A stretch of 64,000 nt of DNA from Limnochorda pilosa. Its GTDB lineage: Bacteria; Bacillota; Limnochordia; Limnochordales; Limnochordaceae. Shown here in pieces: positions 33,941 through 45,246 of this stretch. A model generated the notes under the pieces. It was not told the DNA's origin and searched no databases. It was given only the letters and a program-made list of their open reading frames with translations. Both the position numbers and the translations under genes were made by a program. How positions within the stretch are numbered: the stretch's first letter is position 1; each line of letters opens with the position of its first letter. The DNA lies in the NCBI RefSeq assembly GCF_001544015.1, contig NZ_AP014924.1:2666001-2730000 (forward strand). The letters are read 5' to 3'.

Positions 33941-35305
33941 CTACCGGGTGACCTCCCCCTCCGAGGAAGGCACCACCTGCAGGATCTCCTCGGTGTCTCC
34001 TGAGTCGGCGTTGAGGAAGAGGATGAACCTCTGGCTTCCCACCCGGCCGCGGTACTCGTAGGTGAGCACCTCGCGCAGGCTGTCGGTGGGGATCAGGGCC
34101 AGGCGGCCGGGGCCATCGGGTTCGAAGTCGGGCGGCAGGCGCCGCCGCGCCTCCTGCTCCGAGAGCTCAGGCTTCCCCAAACGCCGATCGGTGTGGTTCA
34201 TGAGGTAGCTCTGGGCATCGTAGTGGAGGATCTCGCCGTTGTCGGCAGCCACGGTCACCTTCACCATGTCGGGGTAGATGAGGACGTCGTCCACCCGCGG
34301 GATGAGGGAGAAGGTCGTCCGGCCCTGCGCGGCCACGGAATCCACGGCTTCCAGGGGGACGCCGGGCATCCGCTCGCGTGCGAAGGTCTCGGCCCGGCGG
34401 CGCATCTCGTCCCGGTCCATCTCACCGCTGCCGACCTGGCGGGAGGAGCTCATCCAGACGACCGCCCCACCCTGGCGTGCCACGTCCAGGGTGTAGGTGG
34501 CGCCGCCCCCCTTGGGTGGGCGCACCGCCACGTGGTAGGCGGGCATGGGACCTTGCACCCGGTCGGTGACGGCCACCTGGTAGCGGTCCCGTTCGGGCGA
34601 GGGCACGAAGGCCCGGGCGACCCGCTCGGCCTCGCCCGGGCCGATCTCCTCTCCCTGGAGGCCCCGGGGCTTCCGCTCCGTCATGTGGTCCGAGAAGGGA
34701 CCGTCGTAGGTGAGGGTCGGCACCTCCTCCAGCTGGACCTCCACCTGCTGCAACCCATCGCCCACCACGTTGGTCCGGGGGGGCGTGAGGCCCCGGGCGG
34801 CGGCCCGCTGGATCTCGATCCAGCCCGTGGGCCCAGCCTGGGCCTTGTCGAAGATGCCGTGGAGCTCCGCGGCGAGCTGGCTCGCCTCACGGTTGAGGGC
34901 AGCCAGCCGCTCCCTGGCCCGGTCGTCGGGCATGACGCCCCGGGCCGCCTGGCGTACCAGGCTGTACGCGTAGTCGCCCGCCTGGGCCAGGAAGGTGCTG
35001 GTGCGCATCATGCGCCCGACGGGCAGCGGGATCTGACCCACACCCGCCTGGGCCAGGCCTGCGTCGCGCCAGATCTCCGTCAGGAGGGGGATCTGGTCCG
35101 AGGGCGCTCCGGCCAGCGACACCTTGGCCAGGTTGGCCTCCATCCGATCCACGCCGTCCACCAGCTCCTGGAAGGCCTGCTGGTAGCGGGTGCCCATCAT
35201 CAGGGCGATCTGATCGCGCTGGGACCGCATGGACAAGGCCCAGGCGGTGACCCCCAGCAGCGCGAAGATGAGCAGGGCCGAGAGCCCTCGAAGCCGCTTC
35301 TCCAC
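33941..35305 (-). CDS. ypeB: Germination protein YpeB
   Basis: Required to localise and stabilise SleB in the spore. Single N-terminal helix (LSALLIFALLGVTAWAL), a helical N-terminal region, then PepSY-like repeats with TYTLDVARQGGAVVWM and VTVAADNGEILHYDAQSYLMNH, the latter a recognisable YpeB stretch. 454 aa, normal. GTG 35305, 78 bp after the sleB stop, forming the usual sleB-ypeB operon. Confidence 0.94.
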   Translation of the reverse strand: MEKRLRGLSALLIFALLGVTAWALSMRSQRDQIALMMGTRYQQAFQELVDGVDRMEANLAKVSLAGAPSDQIPLLTEIWRDAGLAQAGVGQIPLPVGRMMRTSTFLAQAGDYAYSLVRQAARGVMPDDRARERLAALNREASQLAAELHGIFDKAQAGPTGWIEIQRAAARGLTPPRTNVVGDGLQQVEVQLEEVPTLTYDGPFSDHMTERKPRGLQGEEIGPGEAERVARAFVPSPERDRYQVAVTDRVQGPMPAYHVAVRPPKGGGATYTLDVARQGGAVVWMSSSRQVGSGEMDRDEMRRRAETFARERMPGVPLEAVDSVAAQGRTTFSLIPRVDDVLIYPDMVKVTVAADNGEILHYDAQSYLMNHTDRRLGKPELSEQEARRRLPPDFEPDGPGRLALIPTDSLREVLTYEYRGRVGSQRFILFLNADSGDTEEILQVVPSSEGEVTR

Positions 35306-35383
35306 CGTCGTACCCCTTCCGTGCCAGGGTGTGCTGCCTGAACTCGCCGCCCGGCGCGCCCGAGAACCGCCTTGGCAGGCCCG

Positions 35384-36100
35384 CTACAGGGCGAAGACGT
35401 GGGCCCCCACCTGGCGGACGACGGGGCGCGACCAGATCCACCCGCTGACGGGCTTCGCCGGGTTCCAGAAGAAGAGCGACCCGTAGGTGGGGTCCCACCC
35501 GTTGAGGGCGGCCCGGGCGGCCTGCCAGGCCAGGGCTGAGGGCGAGCGGCGCCAGATGAGGCCGTTGGTCACCGACTCGAACGCGTGGGGCTGGAAGACG
35601 ACCCCCGCGACGCTGTTGGGGAACTTGGGGCTCCGCACCCGGTTCAGCACCACCGCCGCCACGGACACCATGCCCTCGAAGGGTTCCCCCTCCGCTTCGG
35701 CGGAGACCAGCCGGGCCAAGAGGGTGAGGTCGTCGCTCCGCCCTCCCGCGGCCACGGGCGTGGCGGCGGCCCGCACCGGTGCCCTCCAGCCCAGACCCAG
35801 GGCGGACCAGGTGGTCGGGCCCACCACGCCGTCCACCCGCAAGCCGTTACGCGCCTGGAAACGCCGCACCGCCTGGGCGGTGGCGTTGCCGAACGAGCCG
35901 TCGATGGGCCCCCGGTAGTACCCCCACTGCTGGAGCCGCCACTGCAGCACCCTCACCTGGTAGCCCGAGGTGCCCCAGTAGAGGGTGGGGCGCTGGGCAT
36001 GGACCGCGGGAGAGCCTGCCAGCAGCACCACCAGGAGCAGTCCACCGAGCCACGCGGCCCTGACCGGCGTCTTCCGAATGCGAGCCTGCTCACTGCTCAC
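35384..36100 (-). CDS. sleB: Spore cortex-lytic enzyme SleB
   Basis: Germination-specific lytic transglycosylase. Export helix (about 15-37), a peptidoglycan-binding domain (YQVRVLQWRLQQWGYYRGPIDG) and the Hydrolase_2 catalytic domain (about 130-238) with SAEAEGEPFEGMVSVAAVVLNRV; Glu in SAEAEGE is the catalytic residue in the family. 238 aa from GTG 36100, which has GGAGG at 9 nt; ATG 36109 abuts the ribosome site and is unlikely. ypeB follows. Confidence 0.94.
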   Translation of the reverse strand: MSSEQARIRKTPVRAAWLGGLLLVVLLAGSPAVHAQRPTLYWGTSGYQVRVLQWRLQQWGYYRGPIDGSFGNATAQAVRRFQARNGLRVDGVVGPTTWSALGLGWRAPVRAAATPVAAGGRSDDLTLLARLVSAEAEGEPFEGMVSVAAVVLNRVRSPKFPNSVAGVVFQPHAFESVTNGLIWRRSPSALAWQAARAALNGWDPTYGSLFFWNPAKPVSGWIWSRPVVRQVGAHVFAL

Positions 36101-36238
36101 CGGACCCATCCTCCCCTTCCGGGCGTAGCCTCCCCTGCGCCCAGCACCCTTATGCCGGCCCGGGCGAGGGCGACCTGAGAGCCCCCGGACTCCCCTACCC
36201 GGGGCCCGGTACCGGGGACCTGTTCCGCGTCCCCATGC

Positions 36239-36266
36239 ACCACCCCTGGGACCCATCAATAGGATG
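36239..36266 (+). promoter_or_regulatory. Sigma-K-like promoter of the 36331 gene
   Basis: AC (36239-36240), 17 nt, AATAGGATG (36258-36266): the Bacillus sigma-K form AC-N16/17-CATANNNTA with A in place of the first C. Start codon 64 bp downstream. Confidence 0.55.
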
Positions 36267-36330
36267 TAGTGGCCAAGCGGAGGCTCCTGCAGGAGCTTCA
36301 GCCGATGGAGCGAGAGGGGGGAAAACGAGG

Positions 36331-36981
36331 ATGCCTCAGCGTGCCAAGGCGACGCTCTCCTACTGGCAGCGCCAGGTGGAGAAGGCCGTCGCCCCTGTCG
36401 CACCCATGGCGGGTGGAGAGGAGCCCTTCAAGCCCGAGTGCATCATGGTCGAGAAGGTGTACGACGAGTGCACCGTGAGCGAGTGCCCGACCGTGACCTT
36501 CACCCGCCTGGTGGGGATTCCGACCAGCGTGGTGGACTGCCGGGTGATCTCCTCCGAGGTGGTCGACACCGACATCCCCAACGACGGGACCGTCGAGTTC
36601 ACCATCCGCTGGACGATGGAGGTCACGTACTCCGTCGACCAGCAGACCAGGACGGCCACCGAGACCTTCGCGCTGACCAAGCGCGTGCGCCTGCCAGGCG
36701 CCCGGGTGGGCATGATGGTGCGGACCTTCCACATCGTCCAGTGCCTCAACTGCCGGCCGGTCACCGTCAACGACACCGTCGTCATCGAGTGCGAGGTGGG
36801 GATCTTCGCGGTGGTGAAGGCGACCTTCATGGTTCAGCTCGAGGTGGAGCGGGCCCGCTTCTGCCCCCAGCCGCCCGAGTGCGTCCAGGTCTCTCCCATC
36901 GGGTGCCCCGAGTGGGCCGACCTGGTGGAGTCCGGCCAGCTCTGGCCACCCTTCCCGCCGCAGGTGGACCCCCACCGCTGA
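36331..36981 (+). CDS. SPOCS/DUF3794-like protein, probable spore-coat component
   Basis: 216-aa protein without signal peptide or helix. Alternating strands follow the SPOCS pattern: SVVDCRVISSEVVDTDI, then VEFTIRWTMEVTY, then FALTKRVRLPGARVG, then VVIECEVGIFAVVKATFMVQLEV. Eleven cysteines (CTVSECP, QCLNC, CVQ and others) suggest metal binding or disulphide crosslinks. SPOCS domains occur in SpoIVA/SpoVID-associated coat assembly proteins. ATG 36331, ribosome site GAGG. A sigma-K-like promoter upstream supports late mother-cell synthesis. The family call is by pattern only. Confidence 0.55.
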   Translation: MPQRAKATLSYWQRQVEKAVAPVAPMAGGEEPFKPECIMVEKVYDECTVSECPTVTFTRLVGIPTSVVDCRVISSEVVDTDIPNDGTVEFTIRWTMEVTYSVDQQTRTATETFALTKRVRLPGARVGMMVRTFHIVQCLNCRPVTVNDTVVIECEVGIFAVVKATFMVQLEVERARFCPQPPECVQVSPIGCPEWADLVESGQLWPPFPPQVDPHR

Positions 36982-37056: not shown

Positions 37057-37761
37057 CTACCTCTGCTGGATGAACTCCTCGGCCACGTAGACGCGCCCGC
37101 CCTGGCGCACGACGCCCGCGCCCATTTCGGTGTACCCGGCGCTGAGGATGTTGGCCCTGTGGCCGGGGCTCTCCATGAAGGCCTGGTGGATCTGCTCCAC
37201 GGAGCTTCCCCGCCCGATGTTCTCGCCCCACCACTTGGGGTTCAGCCCTGCGGCCAGCATCATGTCCCGGGGTGAGCCGTAGGTGGGAGAGATGTGGTCG
37301 AAGTAGCCGTTCACGGCCATGTCCCGGGCCTTGGTGCGGGCGATGCCGGTCAGGGTCCCGTTGACGGAGAGTGCCGCCCGGCCGGCCGCGGCCCGTTCGG
37401 CGTTGGTGGCATTCACCAGGTACCGCTCCGCCTGGGCGGTGTCCCCGCCCGACTGCGGCGGTTCGGGCGCAGGCGCCGGGGGCTGCGAGGGGCTCGTCGC
37501 CTCAACGGGCACGCTTGAAGCGGGCTTCCACCCGGACCACCACCAGGTACCGCTGGAGCTGCCTCCCCGCCAGGACGACCATCCCGACGACGGGCTCACG
37601 TACGACGGAGAGGAACCTGTGGCCGGCTGCCACGCGTTCCACCCGCCGCTCCAGCTCCCGTCCCACGACCAGCCCTGGGCGGCAGCGCCCTGCGCCCCAA
37701 CCAGGAGCACGAGCGCGGCCAGTACCGTCCACAGGCCCCAACCTATCCTCTTGTTCTTCAA
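37057..37761 (-). CDS. Exported CAP/SCP-domain protein (YkwD-like)
   Basis: Signal peptide, then an unusual Trp/Gly/Ser-rich segment of about 60 residues (GWSWDGSWSGGWNAWQP), Pro/Ser linker, and a C-terminal CAP domain with LVNATNAERAAAGRAAL, DHISPTYGSPRDMM, ENIGRG and SPGHRANIL. The metal-binding His pair and Glu of CAP proteins are present. YkwD-type proteins are secreted; some are germination- or coat-related (YlbC). 234 aa from TTG 37761, the codon with ideal AGGAGG spacing (7 nt); GTG 37767 is alternative. Confidence 0.88.
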   Translation of the reverse strand: MKNKRIGWGLWTVLAALVLLVGAQGAAAQGWSWDGSWSGGWNAWQPATGSSPSYVSPSSGWSSWRGGSSSGTWWWSGWKPASSVPVEATSPSQPPAPAPEPPQSGGDTAQAERYLVNATNAERAAAGRAALSVNGTLTGIARTKARDMAVNGYFDHISPTYGSPRDMMLAAGLNPKWWGENIGRGSSVEQIHQAFMESPGHRANILSAGYTEMGAGVVRQGGRVYVAEEFIQQR

Positions 37762-37894
37762 CAACACTCCTCCTCGTCGATGCGCGCATGCGCGAGGTAG
37801 CCCAGCGTCCAGGAGTTACACGGGCTGACACGCGCTTCCTGGCCTTCAGGGCCAGGGAAACGCCCCCAGGTGGTGGTATGTGAGGGAAAAGCCT

Positions 37895-37931: not shown

Positions 37932-38645
37932 ATGGAGGAACTCGGGCGCACTGAGGTGATCCTGGACGGCTCGGGGCGCGTGGAGGAGGCCCAGGAGCTG
38001 GTGGACGTCCGCCTGGAGGTGGTGGACCTCACCTGGGCGTGGGAGGGCCAGGGCCTCATGGCCGAAGGTGCCGTCCGCACGTACATCTACTTCCAGAAAG
38101 AGGACGGCACCGTGGAAGGTGAGGGCGTGGAGATCCCCTTCCACGCGGCGGTGGCTCCGCCCGGTTCCGGACCTGAAGAGGTCCGAGTGCGTCTCGACTC
38201 GGTCCAGGAGGAGCATCACTTCGATCCGGGCGATCACTCCTTCGCCCAGACCATCCGCCTGCACCTGGTGGCCGAGGCGGCTGCCGCGCCCGAGGCGGAG
38301 CCAGAGGCGGCGGAAATCCAACCCCTGGGCCGGCCGGAAGGGGTGGGGGTGGCCGGACAGGCTCCCGGCGTCGACGGCGTGGAAGGCGAGGCTTGGGGAG
38401 AGAGCTTGCGCCCCGCCCCACACCCCGCGCTGGAGCCTGCGCCCGAACCCGAGCCGGAGCCTGCGCTCGAACCCGAGCCGGCCCTATCCCTGGAAGACAG
38501 CTGCGGCCCGCACCCGGAACCCGAACCCGCGCCGCAGGCCCAGGCCGAACCCGACCTGCAGCCTGAACCGCGCGTGGAGCCCGAGCCGGTCCAGGCCCGG
38601 GCTGACAGCTCGGTCATCGTGTGGAAACCCTTCCCTGAGGAGTGA
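37932..38645 (+). CDS. SPOCS-like domain protein with long Pro-Glu repeat tail
   Basis: N-terminal 115 residues: beta-rich, with GLMAEGAVRTYIYFQKEDG and VEIPFHAAVAPPG, the layout of SPOCS/DUF3794 domains in SpoVID-like and coat proteins. From about residue 120 the chain becomes acidic and ends in a tandem (P/A)-x-PEPEPE run (about 160-225), closing with SSVIVWKPFPEE. This resembles the SpoVID plan (N-terminal domain plus acidic linker), but no LysM follows. 237 aa. It begins after a CATACGTTT element and may be a coat-assembly hub; function is inferred. Confidence 0.5.
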   Translation: MEELGRTEVILDGSGRVEEAQELVDVRLEVVDLTWAWEGQGLMAEGAVRTYIYFQKEDGTVEGEGVEIPFHAAVAPPGSGPEEVRVRLDSVQEEHHFDPGDHSFAQTIRLHLVAEAAAAPEAEPEAAEIQPLGRPEGVGVAGQAPGVDGVEGEAWGESLRPAPHPALEPAPEPEPEPALEPEPALSLEDSCGPHPEPEPAPQAQAEPDLQPEPRVEPEPVQARADSSVIVWKPFPEE

Positions 38646-38653
38646 GCCGGCCG

Positions 38654-39043
38654 CTAGAGCGGGATCCGCTGGGCCACTTCCCGCTGGATGAACGTGGGCG
38701 TGAAGACGCTGGAGAAGCGGATCTCCCCATCGATCATCACCACGGGCAGCTTGCCAAGGCCTCGGCGGAGGAAGGTCTCCACCTCCGGGTACCCCGCGTA
38801 CTCAGGGTCCCTCACGTCCACGTACCGGAAACGGACCTTCCGGCCGAAGCGGCGCGTCAACTGCCTTCCCAGCGACATGGCGACCTCAGCCTGAGATCGG
38901 CCCCTCTGTCAGCCGTAGCAGGCCTGCAGGGCGCCAGAGCCGAAGACGATCACGTCCGCGGGTCCACGGCCCCGCCGGGGCCGATGCGCGCCCGGTACGA
39001 ACGGGCTCCACCCCGGCGGGAGAACGGCCCCCGATCCGGACAT
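38654..39043 (-). CDS. Thioredoxin-fold selenoprotein (CxxU), UGA read as Sec
   Basis: A 129-codon frame with an in-frame TGA at codon 45 (38911-38909). Before it: ADVIVFGSGALQACYG; after it: QRGRSQAEVAMSLGRQL. Reading TGA as Sec gives C42-Y-G-U45, a CxxU redox motif at the end of the first strand. The rest is a thioredoxin fold: VRFRYVDVRDP strand and the cis-Pro loop KLPVVMIDGEI. The layout resembles YuzD/DUF1462 proteins, which have CxxC here. A bacterial SECIS hairpin follows 16 nt after TGA to the loop. ATG 39043 has GGAGG at 5-6 nt; a sigma-K-like promoter lies upstream. The alternative start, ATG 38878, gives a 74-aa fragment lacking the active site. Confidence 0.75.
38879..38902 (-). 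promoter_or_regulatory. Bacterial SECIS element
   Basis: Directly after the TGA codon the minus strand folds: GG, bulged C, CGATCTC, loop AGGCT, GAGGTCG, CC (9 pairs with one G-U). UGA-to-loop distance is 16 nt and the loop begins AGG, as in the E. coli fdhF SECIS (17 nt, loop AGGUCU). Confidence 0.7.
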
Positions 39044-39066
39044 GCGGCCTCCCCCTTTCGCCCTCC

Positions 39067-39094
39067 CATGCTATGAACGGGTGCAGGCGAGGGT
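39067..39094 (-). promoter_or_regulatory. Sigma-K-like promoter of the selenoprotein gene
   Basis: Minus strand AC (39094-39093), 17 nt, CATAGCATG (39075-39067); ATG 39043 is 23 bp on. It separates this gene from the upstream ylzJ. Confidence 0.6.
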
Positions 39095-39115: not shown

Positions 39116-39325
39116 TCACACGCCCGGCGAGACCGCCGCCCCGGGCTGAAAGGCAGGATTCAGGTAGTCGGCCGGGTCGGTGGAGAGGAGCCGCTCCAGC
39201 GCCCACCCGCCATCCGGGCCCCGGGCAGCCAGGATCCTCCGCCCGCCCACGGCCATCTCCACCAGCACCCTCGCTGCTTCCGCCTCTTCCAGAACCATCT
39301 CGGGTGGGTAGATGGTGTAGAGCAC
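39116..39325 (-). CDS. ylzJ: YlzJ-like protein
   Basis: 69-aa protein recognised by VLYTIYPPEMV at the start and RLLSTDPADYLNPAFQPGA at the end, which match Bacillus YlzJ. Function unknown; in Bacilli it always follows tepA. GTG 39325 with GGAGG at 8 nt inside the end of tepA. Here spoIIIE does not follow, unlike in Bacillus. Confidence 0.88.
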   Translation of the reverse strand: MLYTIYPPEMVLEEAEAARVLVEMAVGGRRILAARGPDGGWALERLLSTDPADYLNPAFQPGAAVSPGV

Positions 39326-39329
39326 GCCG

Positions 39330-40136
39330 TCACCTCCCGGGCGCGCCATCCGGCGCGGTCCCTGCCCCGGGGGCGGGTAGACCCGCCCGCTCCCGCAGCA
39401 CTTCGAGCGCCCGCCCGATGCCTCCCACCTCGTCGATCAGGTTGACCTCCACCGCCTCCCGCCCCACCAGGACCGTGCCCACGTCCCGCACCAGCTCGCC
39501 CGTGCGGAACATGAGCTCGCGCAGCTTCCCCTCGGTGATGCGGGCGTTCTCGACGATGAAGCGGATCACCCGGTCTTGCATCTTGTCCAGGTACTCGTAG
39601 GTCTGGGGAACCCCGATGACCATCCCGTTCAGCCGGATGGGGTGAAGGGTGATGCTGGCGGTGCCGGCGATGAGCGAGTAGTCCGCGGCCACGGCGATGG
39701 GGGCTCCGATGGAGTGGCCGCCCCCCAGCACCAAGGAGACCGTAGGCTTGGACATGGATCGGATGATCTCCGCGAGGGCGAGACCCGCCTCGATGTCGCC
39801 CCCCACGGTGTTGAGCAGCACGAGCAGGCCCTTCACCTCGGGGTTCTGCTCGATGGCCACCAGCTGCGGGATGACATGCTCGTACTTGGTGGTCTTGTTC
39901 TTGGATGGCAGGATCAGGTGCCCCTCGATCTGGCCGATGATGGGCAGGACGTGGATGGGGCTCGTCCCCCGGGCCGGCCCGCTGGCCTGCCCCAGGCTCG
40001 CGAGGAGCGTGGCCGCGTCCGCGCCTGGCCCCGGTCTGCCTTCCCGGCCGTCGCCAGGAGTCTCCTCGGGCTTGCTCGGAGCATCGTCGCCGGTCAGGGC
40101 CCGCTCCCGGCCGCTGGGATCGCGCCATAGGCCCAC
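39330..40136 (-). CDS. tepA: Translocation-enhancing protein TepA (ClpP-like)
   Basis: ClpP/SppA-fold protein. GGGHSIGAP (Ser142 in the nucleophile position), [20 protein letters not shown] and [24 protein letters not shown]. About 60 Gly/Pro-rich residues precede the fold. TepA is linked to secretion and to degradation of SASPs in some spore formers. GTG 40136 with GGAGGGGG upstream gives 268 aa; a longer form from ATG 40163 lacks a ribosome site. Its stop is 4 bp from ylzJ. Confidence 0.9.
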
Positions 40137-40238
40137 GCTGGGCCACCCCCTCCCGCCTAGCATGCACGGGAAGGGGGGACCTTAGGCGCCCGGCGGCCAA
40201 GCAGGCCGGCGTGGGGCCTGGCCCGAACCCGGCCTGGA

Positions 40239-40823
40239 TCAGTCGTAGTCGATCTCGTCGGCCTTGACCCACTCCGCGGGCTCGGGAAGCCCGGGGGCCA
40301 CGGGCTTGCTCGGCTTCGAGGCGGCCCGGATGTAGGCGAAGACTCGACGGTCACCGACGATCTCGGCGCCCAGGTGCAGGCGAAGGGGCGCCCTCACGCA
40401 GAGGTCCCCGTCCAGCTTGACGAGGCTCCCCGGTCCGCACGAGGGCTCCTCCAGCAGGCGCGCCGAGGCTTCCTCGTTCCGGAAGTCCGCCTCCCCGGCG
40501 CCCGGGATGGCGATCTCGCGCACGAACGGAACCTGTCGGCTCACCACGAAGGTACCCTCGCGGCCCTTGCACCACGCGTGGAGGTCCACGTTCCCCGAGA
40601 CCCGCACCCGCTTCTGCCCGGCGGCATCAGTGACAATCGTACTGTCCAGCAGCCTGCCGTTGGTTGCGTGCGTGCCGAGGACCTTCTCGGGATAGCGGGA
40701 GGACTCGTTCAGCCTCACGTCGCAGGGAAGCTCGAAACGCTCGGACCCCCTCCCATAGACGGCCCGCACCACGGTCTCCACCAGGCGCACGTCCTCTGGC
40801 TCTCGGATCCTGGGATCGGCCAT
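40239..40823 (-). CDS. CotE-family outer spore coat protein (copy 1)
   Basis: 194 aa. Pattern of Bacillus CotE: N-terminal VETVVRAVYGRG (CotE: REIITKAVVAKG), then GTHATNG, the strand GNVDLHAWCKGREGTFVVSRQVPFVREI (CotE: [21 protein letters not shown]), a Cys-containing PSCGPG loop and an acidic tail (ADEIDYD). CotE organises the outer coat. ATG 40823. Its sigma-K-like promoter is 63 bp upstream. Second copy at 44643. Confidence 0.72.
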   Translation of the reverse strand: MADPRIREPEDVRLVETVVRAVYGRGSERFELPCDVRLNESSRYPEKVLGTHATNGRLLDSTIVTDAAGQKRVRVSGNVDLHAWCKGREGTFVVSRQVPFVREIAIPGAGEADFRNEEASARLLEEPSCGPGSLVKLDGDLCVRAPLRLHLGAEIVGDRRVFAYIRAASKPSKPVAPGLPEPAEWVKADEIDYD

Positions 40824-40885
40824 GCGCTCAACCCCACTCCTCCACCCCCGAAGGGGTTGATCTCGATCGTACGGCTCCACGAGAT

Positions 40886-41292: not shown

Positions 41293-42363
41293 GTGGAGGG
41301 GATCCCCATACCTGACGCGCGTCGCCGGCCACCCGAACCCGTCCTGGAGGCCTACGGCTTCCAGGGCGCCACGGTGACCAACGAGAACGCCAAGGCCCGG
41401 AAGGCCGTCTGGTTCGTGGAGCGGCCGGGCCGGACCTGGGTGCTGAAGCAGTCGCCGCTGGACGAGGAGCGACTCCGTTTCGTCCTGGCCGCGTGGGACC
41501 ACCTTCGGGCGCGGGGCATCGGCCTGCCGGCGCGGGTGCCCGCGCGCGACGGGCGGCCGTACGTCCTGGTCCCGGAGGGACTCTTCTTCGTGATGGAGCT
41601 CGCCTGCGGGCACGCCCCCTCGTACGACGCGCCTGGCGACCGGACGCGCATCCTGCACGGGCTCGCCCGCTTCCACCGCGCCTCTGAAGGCTTCTCCCAC
41701 CAGGGCTGCGCGGGCGCGCGGGTGCAGCTGGGGGAGTGGCCCCGCCTGTACCGGAAGCGCCTGGACCGGCTGGCCCAGGCGGAGGGGGCCGGGCCCGTCT
41801 GGGAGGCGGCGCGGCCACACCTCCCCTTCTTCCTCGAGGCCGGCCGGCTCGCCCTCGAGGAGCTACAGCGCTCCGCCTACTCGGACTGGGTGGAGAGCGT
41901 GCGCCGCCGGGGCGGCCTCTGCCATCAGGACTTCGCCGCGGGCAACCTGGTGCTGGAACCGTCCGGAGGTCTCGTGGTTCTCGACCTGGACTCGGTCAGC
42001 GTGGAGATCCCGGCCCGGGACCTGCGCAAGCTCCTGGTGAAGGTCCTGAAGAAGCAGGGGGCGTGGGACGACGAGCAGGCCCGGCGCATGCTCTCCGACT
42101 ACCACCAGGTCAACCCCCTCCGGCCCGAGCAGTATGAGGTCCTCCGGGTGGACCTCCTCTTCCCTCACCTCTTCCACGGCCTGGTCGACAAGGCCCTGAC
42201 GGGCCGCGCCCCCGACTGGACCCAAGGGAAGTTCCTCTCGAAGCTGCGGGAAGTGGTGGCCTTCGAGCGGGCGAAAGCGGAGGCCCTGGCCGGCTCCGGG
42301 GCCCTTCTCCCCGACCCGCTCGGCTCGGCGCCGGTGCCGGACACGATCGGGGGCGATCGCTGA
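41293..42363 (+). CDS. CotS-family spore-coat kinase-like protein
   Basis: 356-aa aminoglycoside-phosphotransferase-fold protein. Lys in WVLKQSP (ATP), catalytic HQDFAAGN and metal-binding DLDSVSVE, all in register; CotS-specific features are WPRLYRKRLDRL and the LLFPHLFH block. CotS-type proteins are spore-coat components; phosphorylation of coat or glycan is inferred. GTG 41293 has no good ribosome site. Its stop overlaps the next start (TGATG). Confidence 0.88.
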   Translation: MEGIPIPDARRRPPEPVLEAYGFQGATVTNENAKARKAVWFVERPGRTWVLKQSPLDEERLRFVLAAWDHLRARGIGLPARVPARDGRPYVLVPEGLFFVMELACGHAPSYDAPGDRTRILHGLARFHRASEGFSHQGCAGARVQLGEWPRLYRKRLDRLAQAEGAGPVWEAARPHLPFFLEAGRLALEELQRSAYSDWVESVRRRGGLCHQDFAAGNLVLEPSGGLVVLDLDSVSVEIPARDLRKLLVKVLKKQGAWDDEQARRMLSDYHQVNPLRPEQYEVLRVDLLFPHLFHGLVDKALTGRAPDWTQGKFLSKLREVVAFERAKAEALAGSGALLPDPLGSAPVPDTIGGDR

Positions 42364-43373
42364 TGGAGGCACCGGCCCCGCTGGTCCAGAAGGTCATGGC
42401 CTCGTACCCCCAGGAGGTGGTCGCCGCCCGCACCATCCAAGCGGGGGGACCCAAGTGCGTGTGGAAGCTGGAAACGGGCCGGGGACCGCTCTGCCTCAAG
42501 CGCCTGCGGCAGCCCGCGGAGCCGGCGGCGTTCAGCGTCGGCGCCCAGGAGCACATCGCCCGCGCCGGGGGACCGGTCCCCCCCGTCCTGCGATCCCGCA
42601 GCGGCAGCCCGTGGGTGGAGGTGGATGGAGCGGTCTTCGTCCTCTACCCCTGGATCGACGGCCGCCGGGCCCGCTTCACCCCCGAGGCGGACCTGGGGCC
42701 CGCGGTTCGGGCCCTGGCCGCGTTCCACCGGACCTCGCGGGGCTTCCAGCCCCCGGAAGCCTGCCGGGTCTCCAGCAAGCTCGGGAGCTGGCCCCGTCAC
42801 TACCGGGAGATCCGGGAGAGGCTGGAACAGTGGAAGACCGCCGCGGTGGCCCGGCCCGACGAGCCCTTCCACGCTGCCTACCTCTCGGCCGTGGACCGGG
42901 AGCTGGAGCTGGCACGGGCCGCGGAGGCGGCGCTGGGTCGCTCCCCGTACGCCCGGATGGTGGAAGAGGCCTTGCCCGGCGACACCCTCTGCCACCAGGA
43001 CTACGGTGAAGGCAACGCCCTCGTCGCCCCCCGCGGCGTCTGGATCCTGGACCTGGACAACGTCACCTTCGACGTCCCGGCCCGCGACCTCCGCAAGCTC
43101 CTCACCAGCCTCATGCTCGACCACGGCGGGTGGAGCGACACCCTGGCTCAGGCGGTGCTCGAGGCCTACTCAGGCACCCACCCGCTCTCCGACGGAGACC
43201 TGGAGCTCCTGGTCATCGACCTGCTCTTTCCCCACGCCTTCCACGATGCCGCCAAGAACTGGTTCAAGAAGGGAAAGCCGGAGAAGCCTTCCCGCCTGCT
43301 CGACGTGCTGCCCTTCGAGCGGGCGAAGGAGGCCGCCCTTTCCCGGTGGGTACCGCGTGCGAGGTGGTCGTGA
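42363..43373 (+). CDS. Second CotS-family kinase-like protein
   Basis: 336 aa, same fold as its neighbour: ATP-Lys in LCLKRL, catalytic HQDYGEGN and DLDNVTFDVPARDL, ending with DLLFPHAFHD. ATG overlaps the previous stop, and its stop overlaps the glycosyltransferase start, so all three are one translationally coupled operon. Divergence from the first copy (different N-terminus and catalytic surroundings) suggests separate substrates. Confidence 0.9.
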   Translation: MEAPAPLVQKVMASYPQEVVAARTIQAGGPKCVWKLETGRGPLCLKRLRQPAEPAAFSVGAQEHIARAGGPVPPVLRSRSGSPWVEVDGAVFVLYPWIDGRRARFTPEADLGPAVRALAAFHRTSRGFQPPEACRVSSKLGSWPRHYREIRERLEQWKTAAVARPDEPFHAAYLSAVDRELELARAAEAALGRSPYARMVEEALPGDTLCHQDYGEGNALVAPRGVWILDLDNVTFDVPARDLRKLLTSLMLDHGGWSDTLAQAVLEAYSGTHPLSDGDLELLVIDLLFPHAFHDAAKNWFKKGKPEKPSRLLDVLPFERAKEAALSRWVPRARWS

Positions 43374-44642: not shown

Positions 44643-45158
44643 TCACGCCTGGGCCGACGGGCTCGCGTAGATGAAGACCCGCGCGTCGCCCGCCACCTCG
44701 GCCGAGAGCGACAGGCGAAGGGGCACCACCGCCACCACCCGGCCCTCCCGCAGGGAGACCTCGGCCCGCCCCGGCTCGGGAGGCGCCTTGAAGCCGGCGG
44801 AGGCCGTCTCGTTCTGGTAGGACATGCCCGCCAGGCCTTCCATGGGAATGTCCTCGGAGAAGGTGAGGGTGCTTTCCGCCACGTGGGTGTCCGAGGGTCC
44901 CTTGCACCAGAGCAGGAGATCGAGACTCCCCGTGGCCTTCACCTTCCTGCCTCCGTCCGCGGTGGGGATGATGGCCACGTCGCGGATCCCGTGGTTGGTC
45001 GCGTGGGTGCCCAGGACCGCGATCCCCTCCCGCCCGGCGGTGTCCAGAGGAATCTCGTAGGAACGTTCGACGGTGATCTCGCCGCGCCCGTAGACGGCCC
45101 TCAGGACCGTCTCCACCACCAGGGCCTCCGAGAGCACCGAGCTGACGCCATCAGCCAT
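44643..45158 (-). CDS. CotE-family outer spore coat protein (copy 2)
   Basis: 171 aa, paralogue of the protein at 40239: VVETVLRAVYGRG, LGTHATNHG, GSLDLLLWCKGPSDTHVAESTL and VPLRLSLSAEVAGDARVFIY align along the whole length. It lacks the acidic ADEIDYD tail. Sequence drift from copy 1 is large, so the duplication is old. ATG 45158; AAGGGG about 8 nt upstream. Sigma-K-like promoter 61 bp upstream. Confidence 0.72.
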   Translation of the reverse strand: MADGVSSVLSEALVVETVLRAVYGRGEITVERSYEIPLDTAGREGIAVLGTHATNHGIRDVAIIPTADGGRKVKATGSLDLLLWCKGPSDTHVAESTLTFSEDIPMEGLAGMSYQNETASAGFKAPPEPGRAEVSLREGRVVAVVPLRLSLSAEVAGDARVFIYASPSAQA

Positions 45159-45218
45159 CGGTCCGACCCCTTTTCCAAAGGCGTGCACCGGCCGCCACAC
45201 ACACCGGTCCGGCTGCAC

Positions 45219-45246
45219 CATGCTATGGCGGGAGATCGGAATGGGT
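45219..45246 (-). promoter_or_regulatory. Sigma-K-like promoter of cotE copy 2
   Basis: Minus strand AC (45246-45245), 17 nt, CATAGCATG (45227-45219), 61 bp before the ATG. Confidence 0.6.

Follow-up and report, generated by a model that had tools for sequence, protein, structure and literature searches.

A predicted thioredoxin-fold selenoprotein with a CxxU motif in a sporulation gene neighborhood of Limnochorda pilosa

Gene content of the locus

The window analyzed here is a stretch of 64,000 nucleotides of the L. pilosa genome (NZ_AP014924.1, positions 2,666,001 to 2,730,000). The gene of interest lies on its minus strand, and the features discussed below are as follows, with positions counted from the start of the window.

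33941..36100, minus strand: spore cortex-lytic enzyme SleB and YpeB (TIGR02869 and TIGR02889, both over their cut-offs)
36235..36981, plus strand: cysteine-rich coat-like protein with nearly invariant Cys 79, 84, 102, 170, 186, 216, and 224
37057..37767, minus strand: YkwD-type CAP-domain protein (PF00188) with a signal-peptide-like N-terminus, the next gene on the same strand
37932..38645, plus strand: syntenically conserved convergent protein with a Pro/Glu-rich tail; no family match
38654..39043, minus strand: predicted selenoprotein gene, thioredoxin fold, CYGU motif, Sec45, 129 aa, stop TAG at 38654-38656
38879..38902, minus strand: bSECIS-type hairpin, arms 38899-38893 and 38887-38881, loop AGGCU at 38892-38888, two more G-C pairs past a bulged C
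38909..38911, minus strand: in-frame TGA, predicted Sec codon 45; shared at this codon by 25 genomes of the class, the other homologues having Cys
39046..39058, minus strand: probable ribosome-binding site AAAGGGGGAGGCC, directly 5′ of ATG 39043, judged from the sequence
39067..39075, minus strand: sigma-E/K-type -10 box CATAGCATG, with a possible -35 AC at 39094-39093 and a 17-nt spacer
39116..39349, minus strand: YlzJ (PF14035, E 4.5e-17)
39330..40163, minus strand: TepA-like Clp-type protease (PF00574, E 6.7e-20)
41293..43373, plus strand: two kinase-like spore coat proteins of the CotS family (TIGR02906, 215.7 and 248.8 bits; cut-off 172.7)

The YkwD-type protein matched TIGR02909 (spore_YkwD) with an E-value of 1.1e-37, below the curated cut-off, and the cysteine-rich protein gave a weak SipL/SPOCS match (E 0.088). 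Two similar-looking proteins encoded on the minus strand (40239-40880 and 44643-45221) flank the CotS genes. Pfam and NCBIfam gave no convincing match for this pair; by eye only, they look CotE-like and are possibly coat morphogenetic proteins.

The in-frame TGA and the downstream hairpin

Read-through translation of the minus strand from 39043 to 38654 confirmed an earlier claim, made in a preliminary description of this DNA, that the TGA at codon 45 lies inside one frame and yields CYGU. With TGA read as U, the product is MSGSGAVLPPGWSPFVPGAHRPRRGRGPADVIVFGSGALQACYGU45QRGRSQAEVAMSLG...IPL (129 aa). A genome search found the gene as a single copy. Its start (MS...PPGWSPFV) is shared with the homologue of a same-genus relative.

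The frames of the homologues align through this position, with sequence conserved on both sides and either TGA or a Cys codon at the site. Its recurrence as TGA in 25 genomes rules out a sequencing error, and a pseudogene was rejected on the same count. A mechanical ORF of 74 aa does run from ATG 38878, as the preliminary description had stated; the homologues do not begin there and even the same-genus homologue lacks this ATG, so a 74-aa gene was likewise rejected. A true stop, be it in a pseudogene, a misread sequence, or the 74-aa gene, would be compatible with the existence of this ORF and with the unexceptional hairpin of the window taken alone, but is already contradicted by the conserved flanks in the 25 genomes, the use of Cys codons as the only replacement, the loss of the hairpin from the Cys forms, and the unconserved ATG, and we give it next to no credence. 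On these comparisons, the internal TGA almost certainly encodes selenocysteine.

The hairpin had been described as nine pairs with loop AGGCT at a spacing of 16 nt, which is a fair reading: the loop AGGCU starts exactly 16 nt after the UGA, and the minimum-energy fold (-15.0 kcal/mol), in which the upper stem closes on GGC and the lower part is bulged, is compatible with it. The published criteria for a bSECIS (loop of 3-9 nt with G in the first two positions, stem of 4-16 bp, 16-37 nt after the UGA, MFE <= -7.5 kcal/mol; PMC13188914) accommodate it with its AGGCU loop, 16-nt spacing, and -15.0 kcal/mol. By itself, the window hairpin is weak evidence and not beyond chance in DNA so rich in GC: dinucleotide shuffles give z = -0.38, and among synonymous recodings about 2% equal it. 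It was therefore assessed by comparison of homologues.

Such a hairpin was found in all 25 TGA homologues, with a 48-nt MFE of -9.3 kcal/mol or lower, and in none of the five Cys homologues, which removes the doubt left by the single hairpin. For the bare stem, the best free energies ranged from -5.0 to -11.0 kcal/mol in the TGA forms, while no Cys form fell below -3.4 kcal/mol. The TGA forms carry G in the first two loop positions, 16 nt past the UGA (19 nt in family f8). Moreover, 5/8 pairs have changed on both sides, and no control slid by 1 to 3 columns equaled the structure in percentage paired, double-sided pairs, or covariation score.

Selenocysteine machinery and distribution in the class

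What selenocysteine insertion requires (SelA, SelB, SelD, and tRNA-Sec), and what the preliminary description presupposed, was found by family searches in the closed 3.82 Mb source genome: one selA and two selB, all over cut-off, two selD genes, both of which carry an in-frame TGA in the N-terminal motif AG-U-ASK, and two tRNA-SeC genes with anticodon UCA. A second cassette (G000:C1:368797-377829, L127) holds selD2, tRNA-Sec2, and selB2 along with three selenoprotein frames with a UGSC motif. The two tRNA-Sec differ strongly, with 66/98 aligned columns equal; the cassette suggests two parallel Sec-decoding sets within one genome.

Homologues of the window gene were found in 29 of the 73 genomes of the class, one of which has two copies. 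A scan of the contigs with peptide seeds had recovered the same-genus relative alone because the seeds were too specific. The codon is TGA in 25/29 genomes and Cys in 4/29 (five genes, in G067, G018 twice, G024, and G055), and the motif of the same-genus relative is CYGC. A selB over cut-off accompanies the gene in 21/25 TGA genomes versus 0/4 Cys genomes (Fisher p = 0.003). Because many of the homologous sites have a shared ancestry, counts across homologues, here and below, are not independent. The four TGA genomes without such a selB comprise one with a clear selB fragment (G012), two that are incomplete (G044 and G051), and one that is unexplained (G049).

Fold, family assignment, and phylogeny

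The thioredoxin fold proposed in the preliminary description was borne out by structure prediction and PDB comparison. The AlphaFold2 model (pLDDT 87.6, pTM 0.80) has 1XG8 of S. aureus, a DUF1462/YuzD protein (PF07315), as its closest fold match in the PDB (TM 0.67-0.70), and this is also the closest solved relative by sequence (E 5e-8). As predicted by the model, the fold is thioredoxin-like and nearest to DUF1462/YuzD, then to ArsD. The CxxC of DUF1462/YuzD, at the end of strand 1, aligns with the CxxU, and a conserved Pro and Gly are found in the second half. An earlier study had assigned DUF1462 to the thioredoxin-like clan (PMC3091736).

Searches of Pfam and NCBIfam with the single protein gave only sub-threshold matches; profiles and a wider member set were needed for family matches. 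The window protein scored 14.9 bits against PF07315 (gathering cut-off 25) and 13.5 bits against ArsD (PF06953, cut-off 27), and a PF07315 search of the source genome gave no match. Among 34 wider members, 25 match DUF1462/YuzD (best E 5.5e-9), 12 match ArsD weakly, and 3 match NF047660 weakly (best E 0.0014). As its score lies below the Pfam cut-off, the window protein is, judging by sequence, a distant DUF1462/YuzD relative and not a filed member. It further differs from DUF1462/YuzD by having Sec for Cys, a coat-gene context, and a sigma-E/K-type promoter. The arsenic metallochaperone ArsD has a related thioredoxin-like fold, and some relatives of the family sit in arsenic operons, but the sequence match is weak and the window locus has no ars genes. 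With the known thioredoxin-like selenoproteins (SelW-like, Sec.1/Sec.2, and the CC/Se motif family NF041239) it shares a small redox protein layout with Sec in a CxxU-type motif and a bSECIS after the UGA; however, our scans gave no curated NCBIfam selenoprotein model at cut-off.

The family profile found members in 74 of 398 genomes sampled from across the phylum, many with a TGA and a SECIS-like hairpin. The tree needs eight Sec/Cys changes, at least five of which are forced by supported branches. Row L061 of alignment A4 is out of frame and is to be disregarded there; its correct frame went into the tree. It separates the CYGU group, which includes the window protein, from the CGGU group of family f13; their shared neighbors suggest a common origin of the two groups, strict orthology being unproved. 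That all Sec-carrying relatives in other Bacillota classes are the same protein was not accepted, several of them being found in other contexts, including arsenic operons.

Promoter and conserved neighborhood

The preliminary description had proposed a sigma-K-like promoter. The box upstream of the window gene, CATAGCATG, is weak on its own and ends in G, not A. A mother-cell-type -10 box (CATAnnnTA-type, searched as CATAnnnTR) was found upstream of 23/29 homologues, in six families of the class, versus 7.8% of background windows; family f8 and one f14 member have no box within the upstream window tested. The proposed box is thus conserved across families; the restriction to sigma-K was dropped, sigma-E being indistinguishable from it.

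An intact or split sigK is present in every genome that bears the gene. The four genomes without sigK all lack the gene, and three of them have selB. The association (p = 0.15) is statistically weak, sigK being present in most genomes of the class, and the co-occurrence of the gene with sigK is suggestive only. In many f13 genomes, of which G036:C65:145874-150535 is an example, sigK is interrupted near codon 115 and its two halves lie about 4 kb apart, an arrangement that resembles a skin-type element.

Families f1, f5, and f7 share the gene order dapG-dapA-rnjA-tepA-ylzJ-gene-YkwD-Cys-rich-sleB-ypeB. The YkwD-type gene adjoins the selenoprotein gene in most relatives, and in family f13 both the YkwD-type and the Cys-rich genes stay close to it. 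Similarly, in G238, which belongs to another class, the surroundings of a CYGU gene include genes for an amidase, a YkwD-type protein, and a product similar to the morphogenetic spore coat family BMQ_0737 (match below cut-off); GerAC is encoded in this stretch as well.

Possible functions

Taken jointly, these observations are probably best explained by a real selenoprotein that is expressed in the mother cell during sporulation and acts on the disulfides of coat proteins. Mother-cell expression during sporulation is, on the promoter and gene context, itself a likely proposition, a shade firmer than the joint explanation, and a redox role on coat proteins is possible at somewhat short of even chances. 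SelB and a tRNA-Sec(UCA) would decode UGA45 as Sec in vivo, with the immediately following hairpin as the guide, and the product would be a thioredoxin-fold protein whose CYGU motif is a CxxU redox pair. Its family, a distant relative of DUF1462/YuzD, alternates between Sec and Cys forms. Transcription would most likely start from the gene's own sigma-E/K-type promoter in the sporulating mother cell. The selenol-thiol pair may then act on disulfides by reducing, forming, or reshuffling them, the most plausible targets being the Cys-rich coat proteins encoded nearby; the Cys-rich neighbor, with about seven nearly invariant cysteines, is the candidate substrate. Coat crosslinking or redox protection, the examples given in the preliminary description, would be possible roles.

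Two other functions for a true selenoprotein were weighed, and we regard each as unlikely. The main one, because some relatives sit in arsenic operons, is that the CxxU forms a soft-metal site in an ArsD-like chaperone or scavenger of arsenite or heavy metals and not in a disulfide enzyme. ArsD is among the top fold matches and, as noted, matches about a third of the members weakly. Moreover, a CHGU relative on the window protein's side of the tree (G209; L107, 8420-12792) adjoins an SBF-family (ACR3-like) transporter, an ArsP_1 permease, and a methyltransferase, and relatives in G140 and G122 also lie beside SBF transporters. Nevertheless, neither the window gene nor its syntenic relatives have an arsenic gene beside them, the promoter and neighborhood point to sporulation, and DUF1462/YuzD gives more and better matches among the members than ArsD does. 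Separately, at L116 and L124 (G122 and G076), an SGGU relative was observed beside an SBF transporter, a methyltransferase, and a Sulf_transp (YeeE/YedE) gene.

The second, which seems to us equally improbable, is a general antioxidant or thioredoxin-type role with an incidental spore neighborhood. Many selenoproteins are general redox proteins of the thioredoxin fold (PMC13188914), and sporulation genes are so frequent in such genomes that proximity says little. Against this role, the mother-cell-type -10 box is conserved in separate families, the linkage to the YkwD-type and Cys-rich genes recurs across classes, and the gene is missing from all four genomes without sigK.

The reading with a mother-cell selenoprotein acting on coat disulfides can be taken one step further, and more tentatively: the protein may represent an unlisted selenoprotein family devoted to building the spore. 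Its members would act in the mother cell as selenol-disulfide catalysts that introduce disulfide crosslinks into Cys-rich coat proteins, and the family would be retained throughout the class, its Sec or Cys form tracking the Sec decoding of the genome. Since some relatives sit in arsenic operons, the coat role may be neither ancestral nor general.

Significance

A 2026 review lists 119 prokaryotic selenoprotein families or subfamilies, none of them of the DUF1462 type (PMC13188914), and an earlier survey worked from known families (PMC5029168). Our searches for Limnochorda or DUF1462 selenoproteins returned nothing relevant, and those for YuzD returned unrelated papers alone; papers joining selenocysteine, endospore, and mother cell were, by their titles, genome descriptions. 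No description of selenium use in spore building was found in the freely accessible literature searched here.

Our analysis suggests that bacteria may use selenium while building spores. If true, selenium would be directly involved in the building of the bacterial spore, and late in sporulation the mother cell would have to be capable of Sec decoding. A family that gene callers cut to a fragment without an active site would also be accounted for, and the selenoprotein inventory would gain a thioredoxin-fold family found across Bacillota. Finally, the exchange of Sec and Cys on at least five branches of the tree provides a natural test of the advantage of Sec over Cys.
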